Source: Dipodascopsis uninucleata var. uninucleata (lineage: Eukaryota; Ascomycota; Lipomycetes; Lipomycetales; Lipomycetaceae). Taken from it: DNA of 64,000 nt. This document shows positions 3,874 to 50,850 of the stretch, in pieces; within the stretch, counting starts at the first letter, position 1; every line of letters begins with the position of its first letter. Location of the stretch: the NCBI GenBank assembly GCA_030568195.1, contig JAJLTO010000003.1, positions 518,501-582,500 on the forward strand, written 5' to 3'. The position numbers and the translations under genes are program-made. The notes below the pieces were generated by a model. That model was not told the origin of the DNA. It worked only from the letters and a program-made list of their open reading frames with translations, and ran no database searches.

Positions 3874-5243
3874 TTCTGGGTTTGTTAACATAAAATTTAT
3901 TGATAGGATCGAAATAATTTTGGCAAAGTATTGGAGGGATGCTCTTTCAAGTAAATATGATTTAAAGAAATTTATATATGCGGCGTGATTTGAAATATAG
4001 CACAGTTGTAGTTTCGGAGGAGTTTATTTTATTTATTTTATATTCATATCTTTACTATCAGGGATCAGCTATACTTGTGCACTTTTTTGCCATTCTTGAT
4101 TACTGGACGTAGATTTAGATATTACTTTTAACTATTTCGATGGCTCATCTTATATAGAGTCAAGGGAAGACTTGGGATAGCTTACATGCTCTATACTACC
4201 ACCATTAATACTACTATTCTAGGTACATTTTTGTGTTTATCTTCATCGTCTATACTGAGTTGTCGAGTTAATTTTTTTCATATAAGTGCGATTATCTTTA
4301 TTCTACATTACTTTTAACATTTTATTAACTATTACGGCTAGTCAGCTCTCTAATATCTACTTGTTGTATTGTCATATTCGTATTCACCATCCATATGATT
4401 GTATTGAGTTAGATAATCTTTAAGCATATACAAAACGAAAACTTCAATCTTTGCCGAGAATATTATGTTATGTCGACCAAAGAGAGTTCATATAAGAGCA
4501 AATAGCAAACTATCATGAGTTGATATCATAAATAAAGAAACGAAATCAAGAAACAATCATATAATAAATTTATTCGCCCAAAATTAGACACAAGATCATA
4601 AATAAATAACGCAGCCACGTTTTCACTGCATTTCTCGAAGACTATGTCACAAAATTCTGACGAACAAAAAGAAATAATACAAGTATTAATACAATAATTC
4701 TACATCTGCCTCTTTCAGTAATAGCATATGCCAAATACAGAAAAGGAACAGATTGAACACAGTATAACTATATATGGTAATCAAACACTTAAGCGAAACA
4801 TATTTCACCAAAACAAACCGAACCAGTTCCTTCCAGTTACATATCACATCCATAAAATAATAAATAGATTTATACCCAAATTTTGCTTTGCAAAACCTTT
4901 ACTAAAAGACTAAATGATAATCCCGGAAAAAGAAATGTAAATGAATGCCATATGTAAATGTTGACTGAAACAAGATACAAGATTGATATATCAAGAATAC
5001 AAACAATAATAATAAAAATAAGGTCGTAAAACACCAAACAATCACATATTAATTAATCGAGAGCCAATACCGGACTACCAAACAATAAGAGGACGCCTGT
5101 CGAGACAAAAGAAAACAATGTACCATAATGTAAGATAATAAATTACAATCAAACAAAAGAACTCCTGTCCAAAACAAAACATGATATATGCAGAACATAG
5201 CTCCATAAACCAAAGTTATTGAAGAGAAATCCTTTTTGCTTAT
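3874..5243. other. Convergent intergenic region, no gene seen
   Basis: About 1.4 kb of AT-rich sequence between the 3' ends of the SYN8-like gene and the small minus-strand gene. The half near 4560-5240 is A-rich on the plus strand, as expected for a long 3' UTR of the minus-strand gene. A 61-codon open frame at 4728-4913 has no protein-like features. Confidence 0.5.
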
Positions 5244-5760
5244 CTATGGCCATACTCGCTTAACATTGCTTCCAAATGGTACCTTCGCAGGTGAAGATAA
5301 CGGTGGAGATGCCACTCTCATACCAGTAGCAGGATCCACAATCTCAATAGCGCGGCGGGTCCTTGGTGCAGATACTCTACCGGGTGAAAACTGCCCCACA
5401 AAACCACCTGCGATTACAGCAGCAGCAGCTGAAGGCTTTAATTGAGACTGCAATGGCGAAGACTCTGGAGAACCAGAAGTGGAAGAGCGATCAGACGAAT
5501 AGAGTGTCGATGCAGACTGAAAATCCTCTTCAGAAAGTAAAGACGGGCAAAACTCCAAATCATCCTCCAAATCAAAGGTTCTGCCTGCATCGAACTTCGC
5601 TCTCGAATGCAACACTGAAACACAAGTCAAATCAATTAGAATCATATTCAATGAATCCCACTTCAAGTCCATTCTTTCATCTTCTTTTCATTCAATCTGC
5701 TAACTTACAAGAGTTAACTGAGCTTGGTGGTGCGGCAAATGTATGGAATTGATAAGTCAT
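5244..5760 (-). CDS. Small unrecognised protein with IVDPATGMRV motif
   Basis: Two exons, 5760-5709 and 5614-5244, joined in phase 1 by an intron with a GTAAGTTAG donor and a TGTTTCAG acceptor, giving 140 aa. The first exon encodes MTYQFHTFAAPPSSVNS, and the junction restores LLHSRAKFDAGRTFDLEDDL. The protein is low in complexity and Ser/Pro-rich, with an acidic stretch (FDLEDDLEFCPSLLSEED) and a C-terminal basic segment RRAIEIVDPATGMRVASPP ending in VKRVWP. These short motifs look like conserved linear binding sites in a mostly disordered protein, but I do not recognise the family. Coding status is supported by the clean splice and the codon-like composition. It has unusually long flanks: about 2.1 kb upstream and a long A/T-rich 3' side. 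Confidence 0.65.
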
Positions 5761-7871
5761 TGCGGCTATTAAATCTTTATCTTGAATTTCTCTCTCTCTT
5801 TGTTCTCTCGCCTTCGGCTTACTTCGTAAATAATATCAAAATATGATATTTACGTGAGTCGTTTATTAAAAACTATTCTCAATCACAAATTATTAAACTG
5901 TTTAGATTGCAAAATCTGCGTAGATAGCATTCAAAAGTGTTCAATAAGTTAGACAAGATATGTTGTTGAGATATCGCTGAATACTTCCTCGTCAAGTAGT
6001 AATAAGCCGCTTAATGGGAAGAGCACATATAATCCTAAGAATATAGATATATAAAGATATATATTAATCAGATATTAATATGTAAAGACAAAAATACGAG
6101 TGAAAATCTAGAAAATATGCATGTATCTATAAGTGAATATCTATAAGCACGAAAGGCATACATATATATATAGAATGGGATGCGAAGCTTTGAATTGAGG
6201 ATATGGGAATGAATGACCTGGCGACCTGGATGAGCATTTTCGTTGCACTTGATGTTAGGGCTCCCGTTATGAACCATTAGTACTGTGTGTCTGTGATCAG
6301 TAGAGTGTGTGATCTAATCTAACTTGATAAAGGTATTTGGGTTTGCAAATATGTGATTTTCCGTTACTTTGCACTGCCCCCGCTCACATGCACGTTTGTA
6401 ATTACTGGTATGACACAACGATCTCGTGATTTGTGACCAATATTGTTACCCTATGCCTAGTCGCTCAGATTCTCCTGGACCGGCCTCACGTGGATTAGTG
6501 ACTGCCCCCAAAGCTTACAAGCGTCATATAATGAGTTTTGTCATATATATGTAATTATTTCCTCGTCAATTATGTAATCTATCTCACATCTAAACTTGTT
6601 TACTGTTTCATATTATTCGAAGTCACTGTTTAAGTGGACAAGACATTCAGACGCATGCAGTATCAGTGAGTACGAAAATTGGCGGATAGGGACATTCGGA
6701 CTGCTTTGTACAATGTCGAGTAGAATACCAATTGAACTTAAAATTCTAGCATTTCTGTCTCTCGCGAGAACGGTATTGCTTGGAGAGCCTGCGTTGCTAC
6801 TTTCCTTTGTCAAGGCACCGAAACCTTGGTTTGGCAGGTAGTGGGTAATCTGAATGTCACCCAATTTAGTGTTAGACAACGCTCTAGTAAGCTGACGAGG
6901 GAATGCGAGAGACGGAATATCTTTGGATATGCTTTAGAAAGCGTCATCTGGCAGGCCGACAGCCGGGCTCTTTCTCTATTATCTAGAATAGGTTAATATG
7001 TGGTCGTACGGTGTAAAATATTATATCTCGTGACTTATATTACGTACGTGTTCTGTAATTTACGTTATCTTAGAGTACTCGCTCTCTTTGTTACTATTTA
7101 CCTTACTTGATACCCCGTGATACATATACGTACGCTTGATTTTTTTATTTCTTCGTTTTGCCTGTAAATGAATTCAAGGCAAATATTTAGGATGTCATTG
7201 GATTTTCTAATATGTGCTGAATCAATTGCAATACTCACATTTTGAAAAATACCGTGTGTTCCAGATCATTCTCGTGGTAGAATGAACTTGGAAGTGGATA
7301 AAATCGAGCAACGTAAGCAAAGCAATCAATTTATACCTTTACGTAAATTTACATAATGCGACCAGATGAAAGTAAGAAATATATCTGCAACGATCAGATA
7401 TGCGAAGCAGGAAAAGTAGTTCTTTTACTAGCTATTAATGAATGCATGTTGTCCACTGTAGTAGGCAGAATCGCTAGTTATGACTAGGAATCTGGGTTGG
7501 GCATAGGAATTATTTACCATCTATATGGTGTTGACACCAAGAGTATATGTTCACATTAGTATATGCTTCGAGAGATGGAAAACTTAGAATACCGCAGAAT
7601 AAACTAGTCAGGTATACCCATCTCTTCAGACCAGGTAAAACGTTCTCTCAAAACACACAATCATCCACACCAGCATACAGGATTTTTTGATTAATTTTAT
7701 CTAGTCCAAGAGTTAGAAGCTGTGTACTGTAATAATATAGGTATTATTACTATTGTCAGTCAGTCAGTATTAGCAGAAAACAAGAAACTTTTTAGATTGC
7801 ATTTTACAGACTATTTGTTGTGAAAGCAGTATCTAAGGTCAACCAATTCAATAGTGAGAGAGATTACTATA
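5761..7871. promoter_or_regulatory. Long divergent intergenic region
   Basis: About 2.1 kb between the small minus-strand gene and DSK2. It contains two overlapping open frames of 81 and 88 codons (6596-6841 plus, 6613-6879 minus) with no recognisable domain, and a GC-richer patch around 6455-6520. Its size is unusual here, where divergent genes are typically 100-500 bp apart, suggesting long leaders, extended regulatory DNA or an unseen non-coding transcript. Confidence 0.4.
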
Positions 7872-11707: not shown

Positions 11708-12286
11708 ATGAAGGTCTCTAAAGGTTAGTACAGTATTTATTTATAAAATGATTCAGTGATTTTAATACCATATTATCATTTAGATGTTTCTTCTTCCCGC
11801 AGTAAGTCGCGCAAAGCGCACTTCGCTGCTCCTTCTTCCGTCAAGAGAGTCATAATGTCTGCTCCATTGTCAAAGGAGCTGCGCGAACAGTACAAAGTAG
11901 GTGAATTTGTCTCTGTTAAATCGATTAGTTGCGATAATGAATATTTTATATCTCAATTAATTGATAGTCTTTAAGCAGAATAATTTGGATCTTCAAGTTG
12001 TATGAATGTAGCATTAACTAATATGGCTTTTGTTTGATAGGTTCGATCAATGCCAATTCGCAAGGATGACGAGATCTCTGTTGTTCGAGGCTCTTATAAG
12101 GGAAAGGATGGCAAGGTTACTCAGGTTTACCGTTTGAAATATGTCATTCAGGTTGAGAAGTTGACTAAGGAGAAGGTTGATGGATCTTCCGTTCCCGTTA
12201 GCGTTCACCCATCCAAGGTCGTCATTACCAAGCTGAAGCTTGACAAGGATAGAGAAGCTCTTTTGGCTAGAAAGGCGAGAAATTAA
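11708..12286 (+). CDS. RPL26: 60S ribosomal protein L26 (uL24)
   Basis: Large-subunit ribosomal protein near the polypeptide exit tunnel. Three exons: a tiny 16-nt first exon at 11708-11723 (MKVSK), then 11784-11896 and 12041-12286, giving 124 aa. The junctions restore the family sequence exactly: [55 protein letters not shown] and [20 protein letters not shown]. The KOW motif is at about residues 48-82. The first intron has a GTTAGT donor; the second has an ATTAACTAATA branch-point region at about 12015. An intron just after the start codon is typical of fungal ribosomal-protein genes. Confidence 0.96.
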
Positions 12287-12905
12287 ATTGTGTGTGTACA
12301 AAAGCAACAAAAAACTTATTAGTCTGGGTAAAATAAACTATCGCATTCGATTGTAATATTTCTAATAACCTATAATGTCATTGGATTAACTCATTCTTCA
12401 CTTATTCCCGTTGTATTGTTTTGAGTTTCTTCTTCCACATAGCAGCTTTATGTGTTATACAAATTTATATGCTTGGTTCTTAACTTTTAAGATCCATGTC
12501 ACGTAGATCTAGACGAATGCTACATGCAAAGTGTCTTTTTGGGAATTTATCTCCATGTTCACGTCGCTAATTGAGGTGGATGTGGTAAACGTCTCCCATA
12601 GAATAATTTCGACTGTTTCAGTTAAGGAGTGCAAATTTTTGCATTACTATTAATTGTAGCAGTTGTACTTGCGGCAGAACTTTTTTCAGTTTAATTGGTA
12701 GAAAAGAAGACTTGAATGCGAGTGAACATATATATTGTAAATAATGTTAACTGATATTATAGGGTAAAATAATGCTGAAGTTTTATTTTTATATTATATG
12801 CTTTTCTCAAATTTTTTTTTAGTTATATACTAGTCATTAAAGTAGACCACATCTAAACAAGTCTTGAATTGCAATTTCATTATCTAGATCTAGGTCATGT
12901 AATTC
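12287..12905. other. Tandem intergenic region RPL26-RPR2
   Basis: About 620 bp, AT- and T-rich, holding the RPL26 3' UTR and the promoter of the next gene. I looked for snoRNA-like C/D boxes and tRNA signals and see none that convince. Confidence 0.4.
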
Positions 12906-25359: not shown

Positions 25360-28300
25360 TCAAAACACCTTTTTCTTCTTCTCCTGGATACAATTAGGGC
25401 ACGCCCGTCCTGACAGCCGTTCCCGTAGCACTGCTAGATGTGTCACTTTCGTAGCAACAGACTGGACACTACTGTAGCTATCTGTAGCAGTCCATTCTGT
25501 GTCATCCGCAGCTAAATTATACTTCTGGAGTAATCCTTTCTCCGAGAACAAGTGCCCGCATGGGTACTGAATGAGCGTATCTGCTGACTCGAACTGGTCA
25601 AGCTTCTCCACGTCTATCTTAATTGCACGAGCACGTCCCTGTCTTAGTTGTCCAGAGTATCGCCTAACTTCGCTATGAGCAATCTCAGTAGCCCCCTGTG
25701 TTATAGAAAGCGTCAACTCGTATTCATGTAAAATACGCTGTAATGCCGGCTTCAGACCCTGAATCTCCAAACCCTCCTTGATTCTGCGAACAAGCGTGAT
25801 AGGATCAATCGCTGTTCCAGCCTGTTCAAGTAGAGCTCGGATAAAATCCGGCTTGTCCATCGAATAATCCAGAAGATCAGTCCACAACTCCTTATCATCT
25901 TGCGACTTCGCAAACATAATTGCTTGTTCTATATCCTGCAGACGGTCGATAATAAGCATTAGTGCCTTTTTGTTCTCTCCTGTCTTGCCAAGAATATACA
26001 CCAGCTCAGGTATGTATTCTCGCTTCTCGCATATTTCAGATGCTTTCTCAAGGTCATAGCTATTGCTTTTCTTCAAGAATTCCAGCAGTTTTGGCCGATC
26101 GTAGTCTGCATACAGATTTACTTGGAGATCCGCGAATCCTTGGGCTGCGAAGCTGTCCGACATCTTTAGTCGTTCAAGATACAAAAAAGCCATGACTTCC
26201 ATTCCAGACTTCATCACCTGTGAGAGCACATTGTTTGGAAGCAGTTCTAGACGGCCCTCCACGACAAGATCAACTGGCTCGAAAGACCTCTCCCGGATTG
26301 TCGACAAAGGTGCTGTTTCCAATTCCTGCTCAGTAAGATTGATCGTTAAAATATTTGGAATTTCTGATAACAATGACGACAGAAGATGTTGTTCACGTAT
26401 CAATTTTATGGCTGATGGATCCTTGATATGCAAAAGATGAGTAACGGCATTTTGGGGTTCACCAATCTCGACGTAGAGTTTAGCAATATTTTGGCGAAGC
26501 TTTCGATCATCTGTTTCCTTTAACTTATTTTCCATGAGAGAAATTATACTTTTAGCATCATATATTTCCGCGGGCCATCGCTCCAAAAGATCATAAAGCT
26601 TATCTCTGTCGTTGGTAAGGTAATAACCTAATACCATTTCATATACCACACTGGATAATACTGGATATACTGTTGGAAGATATGGTGCAATATCTGCGAC
26701 ATGTCCACCCGTAACATAAACCCAGGCCCACTTTTCCCACTCGCCTTTAAGTAGCTTCGTGCCCTCGGAATCTTCATCATCACTTTCAGGAATTACTGGA
26801 GTGATAGGAGACGAAAGCACTTTGCTGATTACTTGGGCCCCTTCTGCCCAATTTTCTTGTTCAACTAAGGACTCGATCCAGAAAATGCCGATATCTCGAC
26901 GACGTGTATCGTCAACAAGCGACTGGCTCATTTCCCAAGCTTCATCGTATCTCTTACGTTCCAACAGCCACTCAAATCTATCATACTCGTTTCTCTCAGT
27001 GGCTTCAACACCATCTCGAGCAGATAAGACAAAGAACTTACGTGCAGACGTAGTTTTGTCACACCAGAGCCCAAGATGATAATCGTTCGCTCCAAGTCGT
27101 TCATATCCCCTTAATGAAAGTTGATCAGCAGAGAATTCTTCGCCAGTCAAAGGTGATACGAGTCGAAGCTCAGGAGTGAGAGCCAATGGACGAGGAACTT
27201 CTTCTGTTGGACTTGGCGGTGGATTATAAGTTAAAATTAATAGACTTTCATCATCGTATCGTAGGACACCTGAGACAAGACCGTCAATACTTAAGATTGT
27301 CTCGACATCTGCTTTTTTGTCAACCAATGCTGGACCTCCGGTAGATTCAAGGGTCTTAGTGTCACCCACTTTAACCCTGATAATCCAAATTGTGTAAGCC
27401 CAGCCAACCAAAAACTTGGAGGGAGAAATCCACGAAATTCTTGGGCGATATAAATCAGCTCGGGGTGCATCCTTAGGAAGCGCGATTCTAGATATTCTCG
27501 ATCTAGTAGGTGCATGATATAAATGAATTCCCTAGATACGACATTAGATAAAAAGATTTACTACATGCATTGATATCAGTAAACTTACCGCATCATTCAT
27601 TGCTATAATAATATCGCCAGTCCAATCAGTTCCATCTATGGGACCCTCGCCATGGAAAAGAGTGGTATCTGTCTGCCTTCCAAGCCAGCCTTTTTCCGAC
27701 ATTATTAGACTGCAAGCAGTTCCGCCAGATATGAAAGTTCGACTAGACTGAAAGTTCGGGTCCAAAGACACAGCATGCACAGGACGTAAAAAATCTGAGG
27801 CCGATATATCCTTGGCATCATTAACTGAAGCAATGACAACCCTGCCATCAAGTGATGCAGAAGCAATGACTGTGCCATCAGTAGACAATGACAAAATTGA
27901 CGCTGAGTGTGCACGATAAGTGCGAATAGGCTTGAAGTCTGGTGTAGTGATATGTAATGTACCACCATGTGTTGCAAACACAAGAAACTTCTCATGTACC
28001 AGGAAGCACGACAATGGATCTGACGAAAAAAGTGTCGGAGGAAGATTGATAATTCTAGTATATTTCAGCCTTGGTTCCTCCTCTTCATCTTCATCTTCAT
28101 CATCTTCATCATCTTCATCATCATCTTCATCTTCGTCGTCTTCATCATCTTCATCTCCATCTTCATCTCCATCTTCATCATCTTCATCGTCTTCATCTTC
28201 ATCTTCATTGTCATCATCTTCATTACCATCTTTAACACCTTCATCATCCGCATAGCTGTCTTCTACCTCACTTCGCTTACCACTATTGTCTAAAGTGTTA

Positions 28301-34387: not shown

Positions 34388-36111
34388 TTATCGAGTACCA
34401 GTAGGAGAGCCACTATGCTGCATAGCTTCTTCAAAGTCTGTTCCATTGATATAAAAATCTAGCTGAACGCGCTCCGCACCAGGCGTAACACGTGCATTGT
34501 TTGAATCAGATTCAGCATCTACTAGATCACCTGCAAGAATACGCAACTCCAGGTCATTCTCTTCTAGCTGACTATCCAACGGAGCTGAGAGTTTGCGAGG
34601 CTGCTGCGGACGAGAGCTATCACGGCACTCAGTACAGATTCGAATTGCAGTCGCAGCAGTTTCCTTTATCCTAGTCCAATGGTACTTCTCAGCAATAGCT
34701 GCAGTGGTCTTATTGATTCCAACATGACCATTCATGTGAATTTCCGTAGCAATCGCTAGCTGGCGTTCAGGTTCCGGTACAACTTCACGATCTTTGAGCA
34801 TCAGTCGTCCGTCCCGCAGGCGATAATGTGATGCTGAAGACCGCAATCGGGATTTTTCCTGACGATCTGCCTGTGGAGGATAGCGCCCTGTCTCCAAATA
34901 GAATTTGATTCGATCAAATCTCAACTCTCCTACTAGATCATCTGTAGGGCCAACAAGATCACGTCCATACATAATGGCATCGACAGGCTGATCGTGATTC
35001 TTAAGAATCGCGGCGCCCTTGACACGACCAATTCGCTTGAAACCTATCGATTCCCAAATACGTCGCGCAGCGACGTTTGTTTCATATACTAGATTGAAGA
35101 CTGAATAGGTATATCCCAGCTTTGGAGCCCAATCAATATAGCATTCACCTAATAGTCTACCAATGCCCTTTGTTCTCGCATGTTGTGGTACTATGAAACC
35201 TGCACTGCAAATGTGAGCGCTTCGACCAGGATAGTTCGGTTTGATCTGTATCGTGTAGGACAGGTTTAATAACAATATATCATAGTGAGTTGGAAGAAGA
35301 AACTTTTGACACTTACATAGAAGGAACCAAGACAGTCCTTGGACCAGATTCTGTTGTCCATAATAGATGATGCCTCACCAACGAGCATAATTGCAGCAAA
35401 CGAGGAGAACCAGTAAGACTGAAACGCTTCCAATGGTAATTGATTCAACATCGGACTATATAACAAAAATAAGATTGTCAGTCTCATAATTTTCCACGGT
35501 CCTATCATATCAGCATATGAATCTAGTCCAACAGAATCATTGCATCAGCGATAGCTGACAAGTCTAAGATTAGTTCGCCAAGTAGAAGTGAAAATGGAGG
35601 CGCTGCACCATGCGGTATCTGACGCGTAGATATCCGTCAATGCCGTCGCTACTTTAGCTTATGGCAAGATAATCTGTTCAAGACTCTCATTCAACTTGAT
35701 AACTTGAATAGATTATCGTGGGCGAGGTAAATTGCTAGAACAGACGCGCCAAGATCCATCAAGCTCACGTAAGGATCCAATCGTAGCGCAATAGTATAGG
35801 ACCAGATTCATGGCCGGGGCATGGAATTAAGTCATAACATAGGGATAATAGATACTGAGTACTTACAATGTTTCGCCTCTCTCGATCTCGGTATTCAGCT
35901 CGTCGCACAAGAATGCCAATAAGCCTATAGGCACTGTCGCCGGGCTGGTAATGGGGTAAACAGTTGCTGGAGTATGTCCATCTCTTAAGATGAAGGTCGT
36001 TGGACCTAAGTCATGTGGTAACGGCGGTGCTGCTGCTGGTGGAGGTTGAGCCGCCGAGTACCTGAACGCTGCGATTGCTGGTTCCTCCAGCATTGAGGGC
36101 ATTCTCTTCAT
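34388..36111 (-). CDS. SPT10: SPT10: GNAT acetyltransferase with integrase-type H2C2 zinc finger
   Basis: Histone-gene activator that in yeast binds the UAS of core histone promoters. Three exons, 36111-35867, 35455-35317 and 35245-34388, give 413 aa; junctions restore ERGETFPMLNQLPLEAFQSY and FYIKPNYPGRSAHIC. A GNAT fold lies at about residues 85-220, with the acetyl-CoA loop RTKGIGRLLG and WESIGFKRIGRVKG. A zinc finger of the retroviral-integrase H2C2 type follows: His298, His302, Cys332 and Cys335 in IHMNGHVGINKTTAAIAEKY then HWTRIKETAATAIRICTEC, as described for yeast Spt10. The protein is shorter than the about 640-aa S. cerevisiae form, mainly at the ends. This is a host gene, not an element. 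Confidence 0.9.
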
Positions 36112-41993: not shown

Positions 41994-44900
41994 GCAAATT
42001 AAGTCTAGGCAGCTAGTTATGTGGTATATATTGGCGGCCAGTTTATAAGTATTTTGCCCCTATTTATTGTTACCTTTTCTATGCTTTTCTATCCTACTTA
42101 ATTTTTTATTTGTTTTATTGCCAGGATTTAAGTGTACGATTTATTTTTATGTAGAATGCGCTCAGGTTTGTTCTTTCTCTACTAAGACTTAATAGTTTTT
42201 CATTAAATTTTTATTTTAAAATTGTAGCGCTAGTGTTCTAGATTTATTTTATTCTTGTTATTTCAGCTATTTTACCTTTTTTTTATTACCTATTCTTGTT
42301 GCTGTTTATGCTTCTCTTCGATGTGCTCATTTACCTATATTCCTGGTTGCTGATTTTTAGGTTGATACCGGACTACTCCCTACAAGCCTATCCTTATCCA
42401 TGGCTACCCTTTTTTCTGTTTTTACTTTTCATTTTGATGATTTTACTGTTTGTGCTTTCGTGAGATCTTTAGTTCTGGAGCTATGAAGGCATTAGCTCTA
42501 GCGTTAAACGGTAGCTTGCTCGTCGTACGGATAGAGGACGAGTGTTGATGGTCGCGTCTACAGGGCACGACAGGCGTTTGCGCGGGCGCGACTGCTTAGA
42601 GCGGCAGTGTACGGCAGTGTACAAGGTACATTAGACAAAAAGACATAAAGAAGAGTGTTAGTTTAGAGAGCTACATGAGATCGCGAGACGTGTTTTTGGG
42701 ACTGGAGTTTTATAATGGACTGTTTGATTGTTTATGGTGTGTCAGCATCGTCTCAGATGCACGTGTTTGTATTCTAGAATATGCTGTTATAGCGCTGACG
42801 CTGTCCGTCGTGCGCCCGTAAAAGGTGGTGTGGATGGAATTTGTATATATTAGATAGTCGTGTATGGGCAATTGTGTATAGGTTTGTACGATTACGGTGC
42901 GTACCAGGGGTATGCATGTATTATTTGTGTTTAGAGAAATAGACACCTAAAAAGGAGATGAAAATGACAAGTTTAGATGACAAACTAGACGAAGAGGTGT
43001 ATCCCAAAAGAGACCTGTCCATGCCCGCTAATATTAGGTATCCCACAAGCTAGTACGTAAAAACAAAACTTCCCTCGGCTAGCCTGCACACTGTCCATGA
43101 CCCTCAGTCCTCTAACTGCTGCACCACGCATGGTCGTTGTCAGCAGCACGCAAGTGCTGCTGTGTATTGTCTGTCAGTGCATCCTGGCACGTTGATCCTG
43201 AAGAAGACAGGGCGTTTTTTCATTACATGGCAGAGCCTGCAAGAGGAACAAGGGCAGCTTAGCTACCCTAAGCACGTTGTGACAGACGAGAAGAATAAGG
43301 CATGCATGGCAGATGTTCTTTCATCTCAGCGCATAAATAAGGACACAAGTTAAAAGTGAAAAAATAAACGTGCTTAGAAGTATGCTAGAGTACTAATATT
43401 TAAGCGGGACACATACGTATATATATGTGTCGATCAAAACAGGGCAATAGAAAATCGAGAAGGATACTACAGCTTACTGTGGGCAAAGCGAATAGACAAG
43501 GGCTACATTTCGAATGGCTTGGGGGACTAAACTGCAAAACTATATGCACTAGACCAGACATGCATTTTGTCTATTGTAGACTTCTCAGGAGTGCTTCGAG
43601 ACCAAATCTAGTAGGATTTAATTTCCGCTTGTCTGACCGGCCAGATGAAACTGAAGTCGACTCTACAAAAAGAGGACGTACGAGGGCTTGCACCGTGACC
43701 ATAGCATTGTAGAATCTATTTTTATGCACGCTCAATGTACGATCCTGTGCACAACTGCACGTTTGGACTTCTTTTTAGCAGTTTATGGTAGTAGACGGTT
43801 CTTAGAAGATTTAATCTAAAAACTTTTAATAGCTATAGGAGTGCGCAATGGTACAGGCCCCGAAGCACTAGGCTGATTGGCTTCTTTTGTTCACAGCACT
43901 GATCTCGCCCCAATCATCCTAAAGCAGAGCTCTGAATAACTTTAGTAGAACCACAAGCGAATTCAATAATCCTTGTCCACTTGCGCCTAATCCGTCTCTA
44001 GATCACAGTTTATTTGGACCTAGTTCAGTCTTTTATTTTTTCTTCATATTGTTCCACGGGAAATGCGCAAGCTCTCCAGCTATTTAATATTGTTCTCTCG
44101 CCCGCCGCTTCCTGAACACTTAATACACTCTCTTGTTTAATATTGTTCTTCAGCCATAATCCTCAAGAGCTCTCCTAACCTGGTCGACGCACTTCTGCGC
44201 TACTATTGTCGCTCGCTGAGAACATGGTTGCTCTCACTCAACGTAGTAGCAGCAGCCCTGCACCGCAGTGTTCCCTGCTACCTGGGGTTGCTTACTACTG
44301 TGCACCAGTATAGCATTGCGACTACGCTCTTCGAGCTAGGCATATCCTTGATCATTGGATATCTATACTAAGATACCTGCCACCATACAAGGATCTATAT
44401 CGGCTGGTGTATGTACGGATTTTTCCATGTCCTCGAGTGAACAAAAGCCAATTGAGTGTTAATATTATTCTTGACAGGTCTGTTAATGCTTATTATTGCG
44501 TAGACCATGAAATGTCTTCCTGCGGTTCGTGCACTTCATAGCAGCGCCAACTAGTTAGGTCGTGCCACAGTTTCAGCTGACACAAGACCGATATTTTGAG
44601 TTCGAGAGGCAGGGTGTATAAGCCAAATGAGTCCGATACGTTGCGTTCGTATTGTTCTTAAGCGTTTCCTTGACTATTAATCTTGTCTTTTGTTTATTTT
44701 CGTCTTGTTCAAGGATCCAAGCTACTATCATGCGCTCTTCAACTAACAGTGATCCTTGTCATGCTACGAATAATTATCTAATTCATCTTATGGTTCATCT
44801 AAGATTTGGCCATACTCTCGGACGCTTTTTTGCGGTTTCTATACAAACCATTTTAATATATAATACCCCGTTGTCTGTCTTCACATTTTAATTTTTATTC

Positions 44901-45404
44901 TCTACTACCAGTCTATCAGTCTACCTCTCTAGCAATCATTTCTAATAGAGATTTCTTCTCAATCTTGAATCGTGATATTATTCTAATAGGAAAGAGGTTT
45001 TACCACTAGTTTCTATTTAGTCTTACAGCAGATCAGCTTGATTCATTTTCAATTAATTATTTCAAGCGCTCAAGTTGTTTTGATCTAGTTTCCTACTACT
45101 ACATAGTTTGGGACAGTTTATATCGGTTGACTTGCCTCGTTCTCCTTCCATACCGTCTTATCAAGCCTTTTTTGTTTTCGTCTTTTTAAGCTCCTTCGGC
45201 TATTCAGCTTTCTGGAAATTTTGGCACTTATTGAGTACGATTGCTGTTCTATAAACGCTGTCTAAGTACTATTTAAAATCTATATTCTTTCTCTGAACAA
45301 GGAATATTTGATTTCAGCAACCATACTCTTTCACAGAACGTTTCGAGTTTTGCAAAAGATATCCTTCCAATTTCTACGTCCTTCTGAATATCAAGTTATT
45401 AGTA
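41994..45404. other. Gene-poor 3.4-kb region
   Basis: The largest gene-free stretch in the window. The first 500 bp are T-rich, probably a 3' UTR. A GC-rich patch at about 42530-42620 contains the direct repeat CGGCAGTGTA and CTCGTC/GACGAG inverted segments. Other features are a perfect 8-bp stem CAGCAGCA/TGCTGCTG at 43141-43162 and a near-palindrome GACACATA/TATGTGTC at 43408-43431. From 44650 on the plus strand is pyrimidine-rich, as in a strong promoter and long leader for the short gene at 45405. Open frames at 43162-43353 and 43425-43712 show no protein family. Confidence 0.5.
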
Positions 45405-45565
45405 ATGGAGCCAGCAACTACTGTTAAGTCCTCTGTTACAGGATCTCCAGTTCCTAAGCCGGTGGCAGGTGTCTCAAGTAAGTTTTGTTAAAAAGGCTAT
45501 TGTTCGATAATGAACTTCCTGCTAATTATATTTTAGAACCTGAATATGACTGTGTCATCTGCTAG
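45405..45565 (+). CDS. Putative a-factor-type CaaX lipopeptide mating pheromone precursor
   Basis: Two exons, 45405-45477 and 45537-45565, joined in phase 1 by a 59-nt intron (GTAAGT donor, GCTAAT branch region, TTTTAG acceptor), encode 33 aa. It starts MEPATTVKSSVTGSPVPKP and ends KPEYD-CVIC-stop. The last four residues form a CaaX box (Cys30, aliphatic V and I, then Cys33) suited to farnesylation, AAX proteolysis and carboxyl methylation. A very short Ser/Thr/Pro-rich precursor ending in CaaX is the form of ascomycete a-factor-type pheromones (yeast MFA, S. pombe M-factor, Neurospora MFA-1). The CaaX exists only after splicing; the unspliced frame ends in SSKFC. The large surrounding non-coding flanks with a pyrimidine-rich upstream region fit a highly expressed short gene. 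No other 33-aa host family with CaaX is known to me. Confidence 0.6.
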
Positions 45566-46327
45566 ATATGAGTATACAGTTTGGCTTTGAAGAGTTTCGC
45601 GTTTTGTCTTTTTAATGACCGCGACCATTATTGGAATATTTATTGTTACACTTTTGTTTGGCTCTGGGGTTTCTAGTGTCTATTAGCGAATGCTCGGAAA
45701 TATTTGAGCAGAAGTAATAATTCTGGTTTTTCTTTTTGGATTAGTATTGTAATATTATAGAAATGAAAATGAGTATTGGATAATAGCATTAATGCGTAAA
45801 CATGTCTGAATTCATTAGTTATTTCAAGTTAATATCTTGCTCCCAAGTATTTGGTTTGTTCCTAGCTATATAAAATTTCCACGTTCTTATAACGTTTCAT
45901 ATGCGATGCCTTGCTTTGCTCGTTACGTTACGCCACGCGCTGACCTAAAAAGGCATACAGCTCTAGCTGACCGCCATCGTGACTGGTGTAAGCTGGACAA
46001 AAAGAGCCTGAAATGCTACATGGCGGTGCAGAATCTGTGGCTCGCTAACTCATATAGGAAGAACCACTAGACTAAGTTGAGAGTGTTGCGACTGCAAGGT
46101 ATTACCTAATTAGTTATATAATCTCTCGAGCATTTTCCATGCTGACGAGTGTAATCGCTGGCCCGCAATCGAGCCTGGTCGGTGAGGCAGTGCACTCGTA
46201 TGCGTGACATTTATGTAGAAAGGCAGGCACACTACATAAGGGTTAGGCCAGATGAACTTGCTTATCTATCACAGATCTCGCCGCTCTAATTTCTCTCTGT
46301 CCATTTTTCCTCATCATACGACCAACA
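45566..46327. promoter_or_regulatory. 3' flank of the CaaX peptide gene and promoter of carboxypeptidase Y
   Basis: About 760 bp. A 77-codon open frame at 45837 is not protein-like. Pyrimidine-rich sequence (about 46286-46320) immediately precedes the carboxypeptidase start. Confidence 0.4.
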
Positions 46328-47959
46328 ATGAAATCGGCAATTTTGTATTCTTTGGTCGCTGCCCTTGCAGTCGCAGCAGATCAGAAGGTGCTTAACGCAC
46401 CTTCTGTTGATGGCTCCCAGACCCCGGTAGTTCCAGTCAACGTTCCAAAACCTTTACATGCTTCAGAGTCTGAAGCTGTTGGACTGGACACTTTGGGTTC
46501 TCTTGGAGAAGCTCTCAAAGCTCTCGGAGCATCTATGCATGGCATCGAGCCCGAGACTGCGGATCTCTGGGCAGAGATGCAACAGGATTTCGGTGATGTT
46601 GTTGATCAGTTGACTTTCGTCTCCAAGCCAAAACCTGCTACTCCCCGTGATGCTAAGGACTATGATTTTCACGTTACTGCCAGCAACCTTCCTGGTTACT
46701 CTGTCCGTGTTAAGAAGCCAAGTGACCTTGGTGTAGACAAGGTAAAACAGTACTCTGGATACCTTGATATCGAGGAGGAGGATAAGCATTTCTTCTACTG
46801 GTTCTTTGAGTCCAGAAATGATCCAAAGAACGATCCTATTGTACTCTGGTTGAATGGTGGTCCAGGTTGCTCATCTATGACAGGTCTTTTCTTCGAACTT
46901 GGCCCGTCTTCCATCAAGGAAGATGGTTCTTTGAAATACAACCCATACTCCTGGAACAACAACGCTTCCATTATCTTCTTGGATCAGCCAGTCAATGTCG
47001 GATACTCTTACTCTTCTCAGTCTGTCTCATCTACCGTTGCCGCTGGAAAGGATGTCTACGCTTTCCTTTCTCTTTTCTTCAAACAGTTCCCTGAATATGC
47101 GGAACTAGATTTCCACATGGCCGGTGAGTCGTACGCTGGCCATTATATTCCTGTTTTTGCCGCTGAGATTCTTTCCCACAAGAACCGTAACTTCAACTTG
47201 ACTTCTGTCATGATTGGTAATGGTCTCACTGATGGTTTGACCCAGTACAAGTACTACGAGCCTATGGCTTGTGGAAAAGGTGGTGCTGAGTCTGTTTTGT
47301 CTGAGGAAGAATGCGCTAAGATGGAGAGCTCTTACCCAAGATGTTCTTCTATGATTCAGTCTTGCTACAACTCAGAGTCCGTTTGGAGCTGTGTCCCAGC
47401 TTCCATCTACTGCAATAATGCTATGATGGGACCTTACCAGAAGACTGGAAAGAATGTTTATGATATCCGTACTTCTTGTGAGGATAGCGCCAACCTTTGC
47501 TACCCACAGATGGGATGGATCTCTTCTTTCCTCAATAATGCTACCGTTAAGGCTGCTGTTGGTGCTGAGGTTGATAATTTCGAATCGTGCAACTTCGACA
47601 TCAACAGAAACTTCTTGTTCAACGGTGATTGGATGAAGCCATATCACTTTGCTGTTCCTCATATTCTCGAATCTGGCGTCCCAGTTTTGATCTATGCTGG
47701 TGACAAGGATTTCATCTGCAACTGGCTTGGTAATCAAGCATGGACTAATGCTTTAGAATGGTCTGGTGCTTCAGCTTTCCAGAAAGCTGAGACTTCTGAC
47801 TGGGTTGTTGGCGACAAGCAGTTCGGAACTGTTCAATCCGCTAACAATTTCACTTTTCTCCGTGTTTTCGAGGCTGGACATATGACTCCATATGATCAGC
47901 CAGAAGCATCTCTTGCTTTCTTTAACAACTGGATCTCTGGCAACTACAATTTTGCTTAG
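46328..47959 (+). CDS. PRC1: Carboxypeptidase Y (vacuolar serine carboxypeptidase)
   Basis: Vacuolar S10-family serine carboxypeptidase, made as a preproenzyme. Single exon of 543 aa. Residues 1-17 ([17 protein letters not shown]) are a signal peptide, followed by a propeptide to about residue 115. The mature domain shows the catalytic Ser268 in GESYAGHY, the Asp in [10 protein letters not shown], and His518 in [10 protein letters not shown]. Substrate-carboxylate motif [10 protein letters not shown] is also present, and the active-site-rim Cys sits in FICNW. N-glycosylation sequons include NNAS and NNAT. Codon use looks biased toward favoured codons, suggesting high expression. Confidence 0.97.
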
Positions 47960-48565: not shown

Positions 48566-50850
48566 TTATTCCTCCAATATTTCATCATCTGAGTCCGCTT
48601 CGCGAAAAATAGCATTATCAGCTTCGTTGTTATCGTTTTCATTAGCTTCTTCTAAGTATCCTCCACGTCCAAATGTGCCAGTAAGTCGCCTAAGAAAAGA
48701 TCCCAAATAAGATTGTCGCTGCTGTCGCTCTGTTGCCATTTCATTTTGATCTTCCACATCAATATTATTGTCTACGTCAGCATCATCATTAATCCTAGCC
48801 TCTGTATCACTTTCTAAATTAATTTCGTCTGTCATTGCAATTTGATTAGGATCAGCACTGCCTCGCATGGCCCGAAGAGCACTCCATAATCCATCTAGAA
48901 CTCCTCTGCTAGCTTCTTCAGGAATATCCGTGTCGACATTGTCAGAATCCACAGACGCAAGTGATGGGAATCCTCCAGGTAGACTATTAGAATTAAGTGG
49001 ATTAACAGGATATGGGGATATACTGTCTAGTGGAGGCAGCATGTCATCAGTCCATATCTCTTCTCCGTCTACGTATTCTCGAGGAAGTAGGGCAAGAACT
49101 GACTTTATATCAGCTAATAGAATGTGTCGCACTAAGTCGCGAGATATCTCATCCCCTCCCTTGAAAGGCGACCTTATCTCTGTGCTTTTCAATTTCTGCT
49201 CTACTGAAGTCAATAAGTCCCTAGCACTTGGTGCACTCCAAAGAGTTTGCGATCGAGCCAAATATAATTCCGTCAGAATCTTCTGTCTTGCAGAGGGCGA
49301 AGTTCTATGATGTCCAGTGATGATATTCAAACCAACAGCTTCGCAAAGGGCTGTATAGGTCCATGGAAACTTCTGTGCAGCCTCAGTTAGGCTCTGTTCA
49401 GCCAGCTCTTTGTTTCCTGCAAGACTATGACCTAAAGCAACAGAGAATGCGATATTGGGCAGACTCTCGAGCCTCTGCTTAAAAATAGATCTCTCTAAAA
49501 TACCAAACAAGAAGTCCTCGTTCCGCGACTGTAATGCAAAAAAATCGATAATTAGCAGGATACAATATGGATCCTCTTCTGCTGAAACCGATAGTAATAG
49601 CTTGAGAAATTCAAATGCAGTCAACCAGGTACCTCTTCTTTCCAGGTTCTTAACATGCCGATAAATAGAGAGATAAAATCCTCTATTCTCGTAGTACTTG
49701 AATGGCAAGCGAACACGACCACTGGCAATATTAAACATAGAATGGAAAGACTTGTTATAAGTAAACAGTGCTCTTTCAACAGTCTTAGCTGCCTTATTAT
49801 GTTCTCCATGATGGGTCAGAATCTCAGACACCTGTAGTAGGGTAGATACATGATAAACTAATCAATTATCTGTTAGTCAACGAACCACAACCTTAGATAC
49901 TTAATCTACTTACAATTTCTTTGAAGAAGATCTATCAGTAACTCAGCGTCCCCAAATTGTATACACATATAAAACTGTCGCTGAACATCCATATATGCTC
50001 GTGTATGTGAGAATTTAAACATTGTAACATCACCCTCTGTACCCACAATCTCCATATTCATTCCCGACGCTCCAATTAAAGGTGGCCAGTCGTCAGCAGG
50101 TTGGACAAGAACATAACGCTTGCTAGCAATTGGACGTGCTAGACCGTTATTGGCCCTTCGTACTTCACGAGCACCTTCTTGGAATACGCGACGTCCAAAA
50201 AATTTTCTCATTTCTCTTTCTGGATCCAAATTCTTAGTGTTTATAGATAATAGTCTTGCTGTTTGAACTGCATCTTCTTGAACCTGCTGCTGTGTCACGT
50301 CTCGACGTGCATTCGGAGAATTGGTTATTATAGCCTTCGAAGCCTGATCCTTCAGTCTCAGTGCCTCTAGTGCAGCGTCGATCTCATCCATTTCTTTATT
50401 ATCAGCATTCTGCTGAATTACATCGGCATTCTGCTTCTTCGATCTATTCTTCGATCGATTCTTCTTCTTACTCTTTTTGCTCTTAGACTTTGACATACCC
50501 AATACTGTCTGCTTTGCCTGTACAGGCGAGTGTTCTGTGGTCTCTATTGAACGGTCCTTTTCCGCAGCCTGCATATTGGTCTCCGCAGCTATTTCCGACT
50601 CCTCGTCATCGCCTTCATGGTCTTCCTCAGACCCTTCATCAAGTAATGCAAACATACTGGACTTAGCAGCTATCGCAAATCTCCCACCTGTGAACTGGCT
50701 CTCATATTCATCATTTTCCTCGTCCTCGCAAACTTCATTTTTCGTCTCAATAGTTGCTTGGTTTGTCGGTGACTCAGACACCTCACGTCTTACTGGTGAC
50801 TGCAGTACCTCTTGATTACGTAACGCTCGTCTCACTGCTCTTGAGCTCAT
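48566..50850 (-). CDS. RQC1: TCF25 / RQC1 family ribosome quality control protein
   Basis: Component of the ribosome-associated quality control complex that works with Ltn1, Rqc2 and Cdc48 on stalled 60S subunits. Two exons, 50850-49914 and 49857-48566 (742 aa), are separated by a 56-nt intron; the junction reads LLQRNFYHVSTLLQVSEILT. N-terminal third: acidic and Lys-rich (KSKSKKSKKKNRSKNRSKK). Then the TCF25 core: DDWPPLIGASGMNMEIVG, FSHTRAYMDVQRQFY, TLLQVSEILTHHGEHNKAAK, RALFTYNKSFHSMFN, RLPFKYYENRGFYLSIYRHV, ERRGTWLTAFEFLKLLLSV. The C-terminus is acidic. All hallmarks of the family are present. Confidence 0.93.

Follow-up and report, generated by a model that had tools for sequence, protein, structure and literature searches.

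Known a-factor precursors and a candidate in the window

The a-factor precursors of Saccharomyces cerevisiae, MFA1 and MFA2, are about 35 residues long, with a Ser/Thr-containing N-terminal part and a CVIA end, and neither gene is known to contain an intron. Short length, a Ser/Thr-rich N-terminal part and a terminal CaaX box are given as marks of a-factors in the available parts of PMC10569646, PMC3068285 and PMC5106798. The a-type precursor of Magnaporthe grisea is the 26-residue peptide MSPSTKNIPAPVAGARAGPIHYCVIM, while the h-type precursors of the Hypocreales (HPP1) are likewise short and CaaX-ended and contain three copies of (LI)GC(TS)VM, with Kex2 sites in H. jecorina (both from the accessible portion of PMC3068285). 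Pheromones of the a-class have also been described from intron-rich yeasts, namely a validated one in Yarrowia lipolytica and a candidate in Blastobotrys adeninivorans (PMC7243462 and PMC4022394, as far as their text was available). Given that the a-factors of Y. lipolytica and S. cerevisiae share no sequence similarity (same portion of PMC7243462), homology cannot decide whether a gene belongs here. The X position of the box also varies in other yeast a-pheromones, as illustrated by CVIV and CTIV in Australozyma (PMC12359140).

Examination of the window, that is the whole 64-kb stretch of Dipodascopsis uninucleata DNA analysed here (40.3% GC), points to a comparable gene at 45405-45565 (Table 1). 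We consider it very likely that this is a real spliced gene, and its anatomy suggests that it is probably a mating pheromone gene of the yeast a-factor type, interrupted by a single intron. Translation recovers, in coordinates and in sequence, precisely the ATG, the short intron and the second exon ending in CVIC and a stop that an earlier sequence-only reading had described. The spliced 33-residue product, MEPATTVKSSVTGSPVPKPVAGVSKPEYDCVIC, has CVIC as its C-terminal CaaX box; read through the intron, the frame from the ATG stops after 28 residues (...VSSKFC) without a CaaX box, which bears out the earlier claim that the box is present in the spliced frame only.

Table 1. Features of the candidate locus and of other parts of the window cited in the text
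Feature	Position	Strand	Description
Four TATTGTTC sites	starts 44047, 44088, 44141, 44650 (span 44047-44657)	+	0.75-1.36 kb before the ATG
Probable 5' leader and core promoter	44793-45404	+	T-rich; ATG-free for 612 nt; TATAAA at 45250
Exon 1	45405-45477	+	73 nt; codons 1-24, then one base of codon 25; from translation
Intron	45478-45536	+	59 nt; phase 1; GTAAGT ... GCTAAT ... TTTTAG
Fifth TATTGTTC copy	45498-45505	+	inside the candidate intron
Exon 2	45537-45565	+	29 nt; completes Lys25, then PEYDCVIC and stop; ends TGCTAG
Downstream non-coding stretch	45566-46327	+	reaches the carboxypeptidase Y-type gene; would contain the 3' UTR
Carboxypeptidase Y-type gene	46328-47959		best PDB match carboxypeptidase Y 1wpx; next gene after the candidate
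95-aa ORF	43425-43712	+	lies before the candidate, in a stretch with little else
snR49 H/ACA snoRNA match (Rfam RF01239)	12539-12672	+	46.3 bits, cut-off 45; sole Rfam match of the window
Intron of Vps41-like gene			57 nt; GTAAGT, TCTAAT, ATCTAG; joining restores long ORF
Intron of chorismate-mutase-like gene			74 nt; GTAAGT, GCTAAC, TTATAG; joining restores long ORF
Intron of cyclophilin-like gene			76 nt; GTATGT, TCTAAC, TATTAG; joining restores long ORF

The product contains 4 Ser, 3 Thr and 5 Pro, and six of the seven Ser/Thr residues fall within the first 14 positions, which gives it the Ser/Thr-rich N-terminal part of an a-factor. Its Kyte-Doolittle hydropathy averages -0.1 over the first 20 residues and reaches at most 0.68 in any 9-residue window; judged on this profile and on the 33-residue length, it is a short precursor (<100 aa) that probably lacks a signal peptide. 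There is no CTG codon in the codon list of the spliced ORF, and its translation is therefore independent of CUG reassignment. The match of length, Ser/Thr-rich N-terminal part and terminal CaaX to the published a-factor marks supports the pheromone reading.

Like MFA1 and MFA2, the candidate combines a length of about 35 residues and a Ser/Thr N-terminal part with a C-V-I-X end, and its M-E-P-x-T-T start resembles the M-Q-P-x-T-T start of MFA2; in contrast, the S. cerevisiae pair is not known to contain introns, has Ala at X and shows weak likeness in the interior. The best of the four comparisons made is that with the M. grisea precursor, which shares an M-x-P-x-T start, a P-x-PVAG block and a CVI-X end, but differs in having X = Met, a Tyr directly before the Cys and 26 residues, and in coming from a filamentous fungus whereas the window looks yeast-like. 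Uncorrected P values for interior likeness to the four precursors were 0.027 for M. grisea, 0.040 for S. cerevisiae MFA2, 0.30 for MFA1 and 0.42 for Neurospora crassa. The likeness of the candidate to known precursors is weak, and that to MFA1 and N. crassa mfa-1 lies at chance level. No Pfam or NCBIfam family was recovered for the peptide at E up to 10, and no PDB chain matched it.

Membership of the h-type hybrids was rejected, the translation having a single CaaX and no (LI)GC(TS)VM repeat. The candidate also contains neither GY, the Gly-Tyr motif of Sordariomycetes and Leotiomycetes (available part of PMC10569646), nor YC, the Tyr directly before the CaaX Cys (available part of PMC3068285). 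Its N-terminus is not hydrophobic in the sense used for Ceratocystidaceae (PMC13037118), the first 9-20 residues having means of -0.05 to -0.37; the M. grisea precursor is likewise non-hydrophobic, at -0.18 over 12 residues. These missing marks of filamentous groups define subgroups rather than the a-factor class as a whole.

The terminal Cys had been singled out as an unusual variant, a view that is half sustained: the sole CVIC paper found concerns plants, but Cys is accepted for farnesylation. It is among the X residues listed for this modification, and the recombinant Arabidopsis enzyme showed appreciable farnesylation of a CaaX substrate with a terminal Cys (both in the available part of PMC3017772). 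From these listed residues, CVIC at the stop is predicted to be acceptable to farnesyltransferase. That plant paper was the single hit for CVIC with farnesyl and CaaX wording in the open-access literature, a search that differently worded pheromone papers would escape; CVIC occurs nowhere in PMC9231725, and no statement on the yeast enzyme with CVIC was found. The variant traits of the candidate are the terminal Cys and the intron that creates the CaaX box; it would otherwise be of the known a-factor kind.

Genomic setting

The stretch from 42000 to 46320 has no ATG-started ORF of at least 100 aa, the longest being a 95-aa ORF for which no Pfam family was found at E up to 0.001. Within it no Rfam family reached its cut-off, and ARAGORN with its bacterial code setting, which intron-bearing eukaryotic tRNAs may escape, detected no tRNA gene in the whole window. 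The description of the locus as lying in about 4 kb of non-coding DNA is therefore about right. Downstream, the carboxypeptidase gene found no relative in a viral-contig collection, where a negative says little given that it covers viruses and prokaryotes only. Other genes of the window code for isocitrate lyase, UTP15, a TCF25 family protein, S-adenosylmethionine decarboxylase, perilipin, lariat debranching enzyme, inositol polyphosphate kinase, Vps41 and chorismate mutase. These neighbours are ordinary fungal genes and suggest a budding yeast with introns in many genes. A separate ORF on the minus strand (34388-35275) combines a GNAT acetyltransferase match with an integrase-type H2C2 zinc finger, a pairing that, in our reading, presumably recalls yeast Spt10.

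Splice signals, codon use and the ATG-free leader

The candidate intron has the donor and NCTAAY branch pattern seen in the Vps41-, chorismate-mutase- and cyclophilin-like genes of the window (Table 1). After joining, the chorismate mutase matches solved chorismate mutases over residues 1 to 254, which confirms its intron. For the cyclophilin, joining improves the score from 91 to 153.5 bits, and the alignment takes in profile positions 2-158 of 159. Homology confirms the joining of these two introns, and that of the Vps41-like gene rests on the restored ORF. The branch-to-AG spacing of the candidate is 10 nt, the shortest among ten listed introns of the window being 11.

We trained a codon model on 6457 codons from 16 ORFs of the window. 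Under it the candidate has a log-likelihood of 5.9 nats, which places it near the 75th percentile among 751 gene segments drawn from the training genes (mean 3.6, SD 3.2). Presumed intergenic frames (n=2901, overlapping) have a mean of -3.6 and an SD of 3.0, and four of them (0.14%) reach the score of the candidate. Exon 1 scores 7.2 nats in frame and -3.2 in frame +1, with two stops in frame +2. We rejected an upstream extension of this exon, given that the 31 codons preceding the ATG in frame score -3.2 nats and contain no ATG.

Ribosome scanning demands a leader without ATG. Among the 1126 and 1188 ATGs counted on the two strands of the window, that at 45405 closes the longest ATG-to-ATG gap of either strand, 615 nt from the ATG at 44790. 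The runner-up, starting at 50005, is almost as long (612 nt), the third measures 508 nt and starts at 28014, and each of these two lies on the strand opposite long ORFs. A dinucleotide model predicts 5.1 ATGs in the leader stretch, with P(0) = 0.007.

How often a spliced CaaX arises by chance

A rival account denies the gene altogether and takes the ATG, donor, acceptor and CaaX for random elements that happen to fall together in intergenic DNA. We scanned both strands for a strict CaaX, C[VIL][VIL][ACSMQ], using splice rules derived from this sequence itself. This recovered 14 short spliced ORFs (7 per strand), one of which, the candidate, has a Cys at position -4, and no strict CaaX among 482 single-exon short ORFs (251 and 231 by strand). 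In 120 simulated windows a strict CaaX was seen in 0 of 365 spliced ORFs, as against 34 of 68,881 single-exon ORFs; these counts under the window-derived rules translate to about 0.001-0.007 chance cases per window. Loosening the splice rules raises the number of spliced ORFs in the real window to 391, of which the candidate has a strict CaaX and six further rows pass a broader CaaX filter, and simulation gives 12 strict cases in 60 windows, or 0.2 per window. Pieces of an intron-containing gene at 11781-12500 (+), which we take to resemble ribosomal protein L26, gave CaaX decoys under these loose rules.

Taken alone under loose rules, a CaaX combined with some intron is not rare. At the loose rate, a scan of many 64-kb windows would meet some such peptides, and the lack of a sequence relative in Pfam, NCBIfam or PDB is also what a chance peptide would show. 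Since the CaaX by itself is insufficient to settle whether the gene is real, the codon-use and ATG-free-gap tests were added as independent evidence. Three lines of evidence that do not depend on the CaaX, namely codon use, the leader and the native splice signals, favour a gene, and a strict CaaX combined with gene-like codon use occurred in none of 25,285 simulated spliced ORFs. Against these observations we regard coincidence as improbable.

Upstream sites and other readings of the gene

The sequence TATTGTTC, which the sequence-only reading had passed over, occurs five times on the plus strand of the window and never on the minus strand, with all copies within 44047-45505. HMG-box proteins, to which the a-type mating regulators of many ascomycetes belong, have ATTGTT/AACAAT as their core site. 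The cluster is hence suggestive of a candidate site group for a mating-type HMG-box regulator, itself postulated from the sites. The motif was picked after being noticed rather than set beforehand, and simulated stretches yield a best non-low-complexity 8-mer with at least four copies in 2.1% of cases under an order-2 model and in 7.6% under order 3; elsewhere in the window there are further 8-mer clusters of this size. Taken by itself, the shorter core ATTGTT does not stand out (P 0.04-0.11), and the minus-strand list has five copies of it near 4000-6000. TGAAACA, to which we give little weight, is absent from 43900-45404.

The site group also bears on the possibility that the gene encodes a genuine small prenylated protein that does not act as a mating pheromone, for example a micropeptide anchored in the membrane. 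To our knowledge, fungal CaaX proteins of about 33 residues are pheromone precursors, and the TATTGTTC cluster hints at mating-type control; these points make such a protein very improbable, even though function is not readable from sequence alone and CaaX boxes are not exclusive to pheromones (available part of PMC10569646).

The codon signal is confined to exon 1, exon 2 by itself giving no positive signal, and the exon 2 boundary therefore rests on the splice signals and the CaaX. Among the acceptors examined 35-1200 nt past the donor with a branch-like site within about 31 nt, a CaaX end results from 45536 alone, and alternative acceptors for exon 1 were rejected accordingly. The least probable alternative is that a genuine exon 1 forms part of some other transcript (with another acceptor, a longer protein or a regulatory RNA) and CVIC is incidental: it would fit the 7.2 nats of exon 1 beside the silence of exon 2, and frames of 67-104 codons would open after some distant acceptors that lack a branch-like site, but none of the listed acceptors with YAG and an NCTRAY-like branch, bar 45536, opens more than 60 codons, and those lie at least 483 nt from the donor as against 57-76 nt in the three joined introns.

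Proposed processing of the precursor

Returning to the a-factor-type pheromone, the earlier proposal of such a precursor is upheld as to a spliced 33-codon CaaX gene by splice signals, codons, leader and simulation; the pheromone role is what we infer from these features. We propose that in a-type cells a mating-type HMG-box protein would bind the upstream TATTGTTC sites and switch the gene on, and that the 59-nt intron would be spliced out of the transcript. Farnesyltransferase would then prenylate Cys30 of the spliced precursor, a CaaX protease of the Rce1/Ste24 type would cut VIC off, and a Ste14-type enzyme would methylate the exposed cysteine. The N-terminal Ser/Thr/Pro-rich part would be clipped, and the mature peptide probably lies within about PVAGVSKPEYD-C(farnesyl)-OMe. 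Its release would be through an ABC exporter of the Ste6 type, and on partner cells it would bind a receptor of the Ste3 type. The enzymes named for processing, export and reception are those of the known a-factor pathway.

CVIC comes into frame only on splicing; translation of the unspliced RNA would give a 28-residue peptide without a CaaX, and splicing would therefore be obligatory for activity. We tentatively raise the idea, on which we would not rely, that the prenylation box is made solely by splicing, such that removal of an intron that itself holds an HMG-type motif may be an obligatory and possibly regulated step, with CVIC as the signal.

Implications for the a-factor class

Neither an intron-split ascomycete a-factor nor a CVIC pheromone was found in the open-access literature, leaving aside the yeast survey of Srikant et al. 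2023. The available parts of PMC3068285, PMC10569646, PMC10182648 and PMC8686365 (the last on basidiomycetes) contain no account of an ascomycete a-factor whose coding region is interrupted by an intron, and the words intron and exon are absent from PMC13037118. Published scans seek short ORFs or annotated proteins with a CaaX end (e.g. PMC13037118 and the accessible portions of PMC10569646 and PMC5106798). As a-factor genes diverge fast enough for homology searches to miss them, and a CaaX-hiding intron would defeat scans of unspliced ORFs, any genes of this class would be missed in intron-rich yeasts. Native splice signals, the codon use of 33 codons and an ATG-free leader offer a cheap way to lift such candidates above chance, and an intron-hidden CaaX might account for some of the yeasts without a known a-factor.
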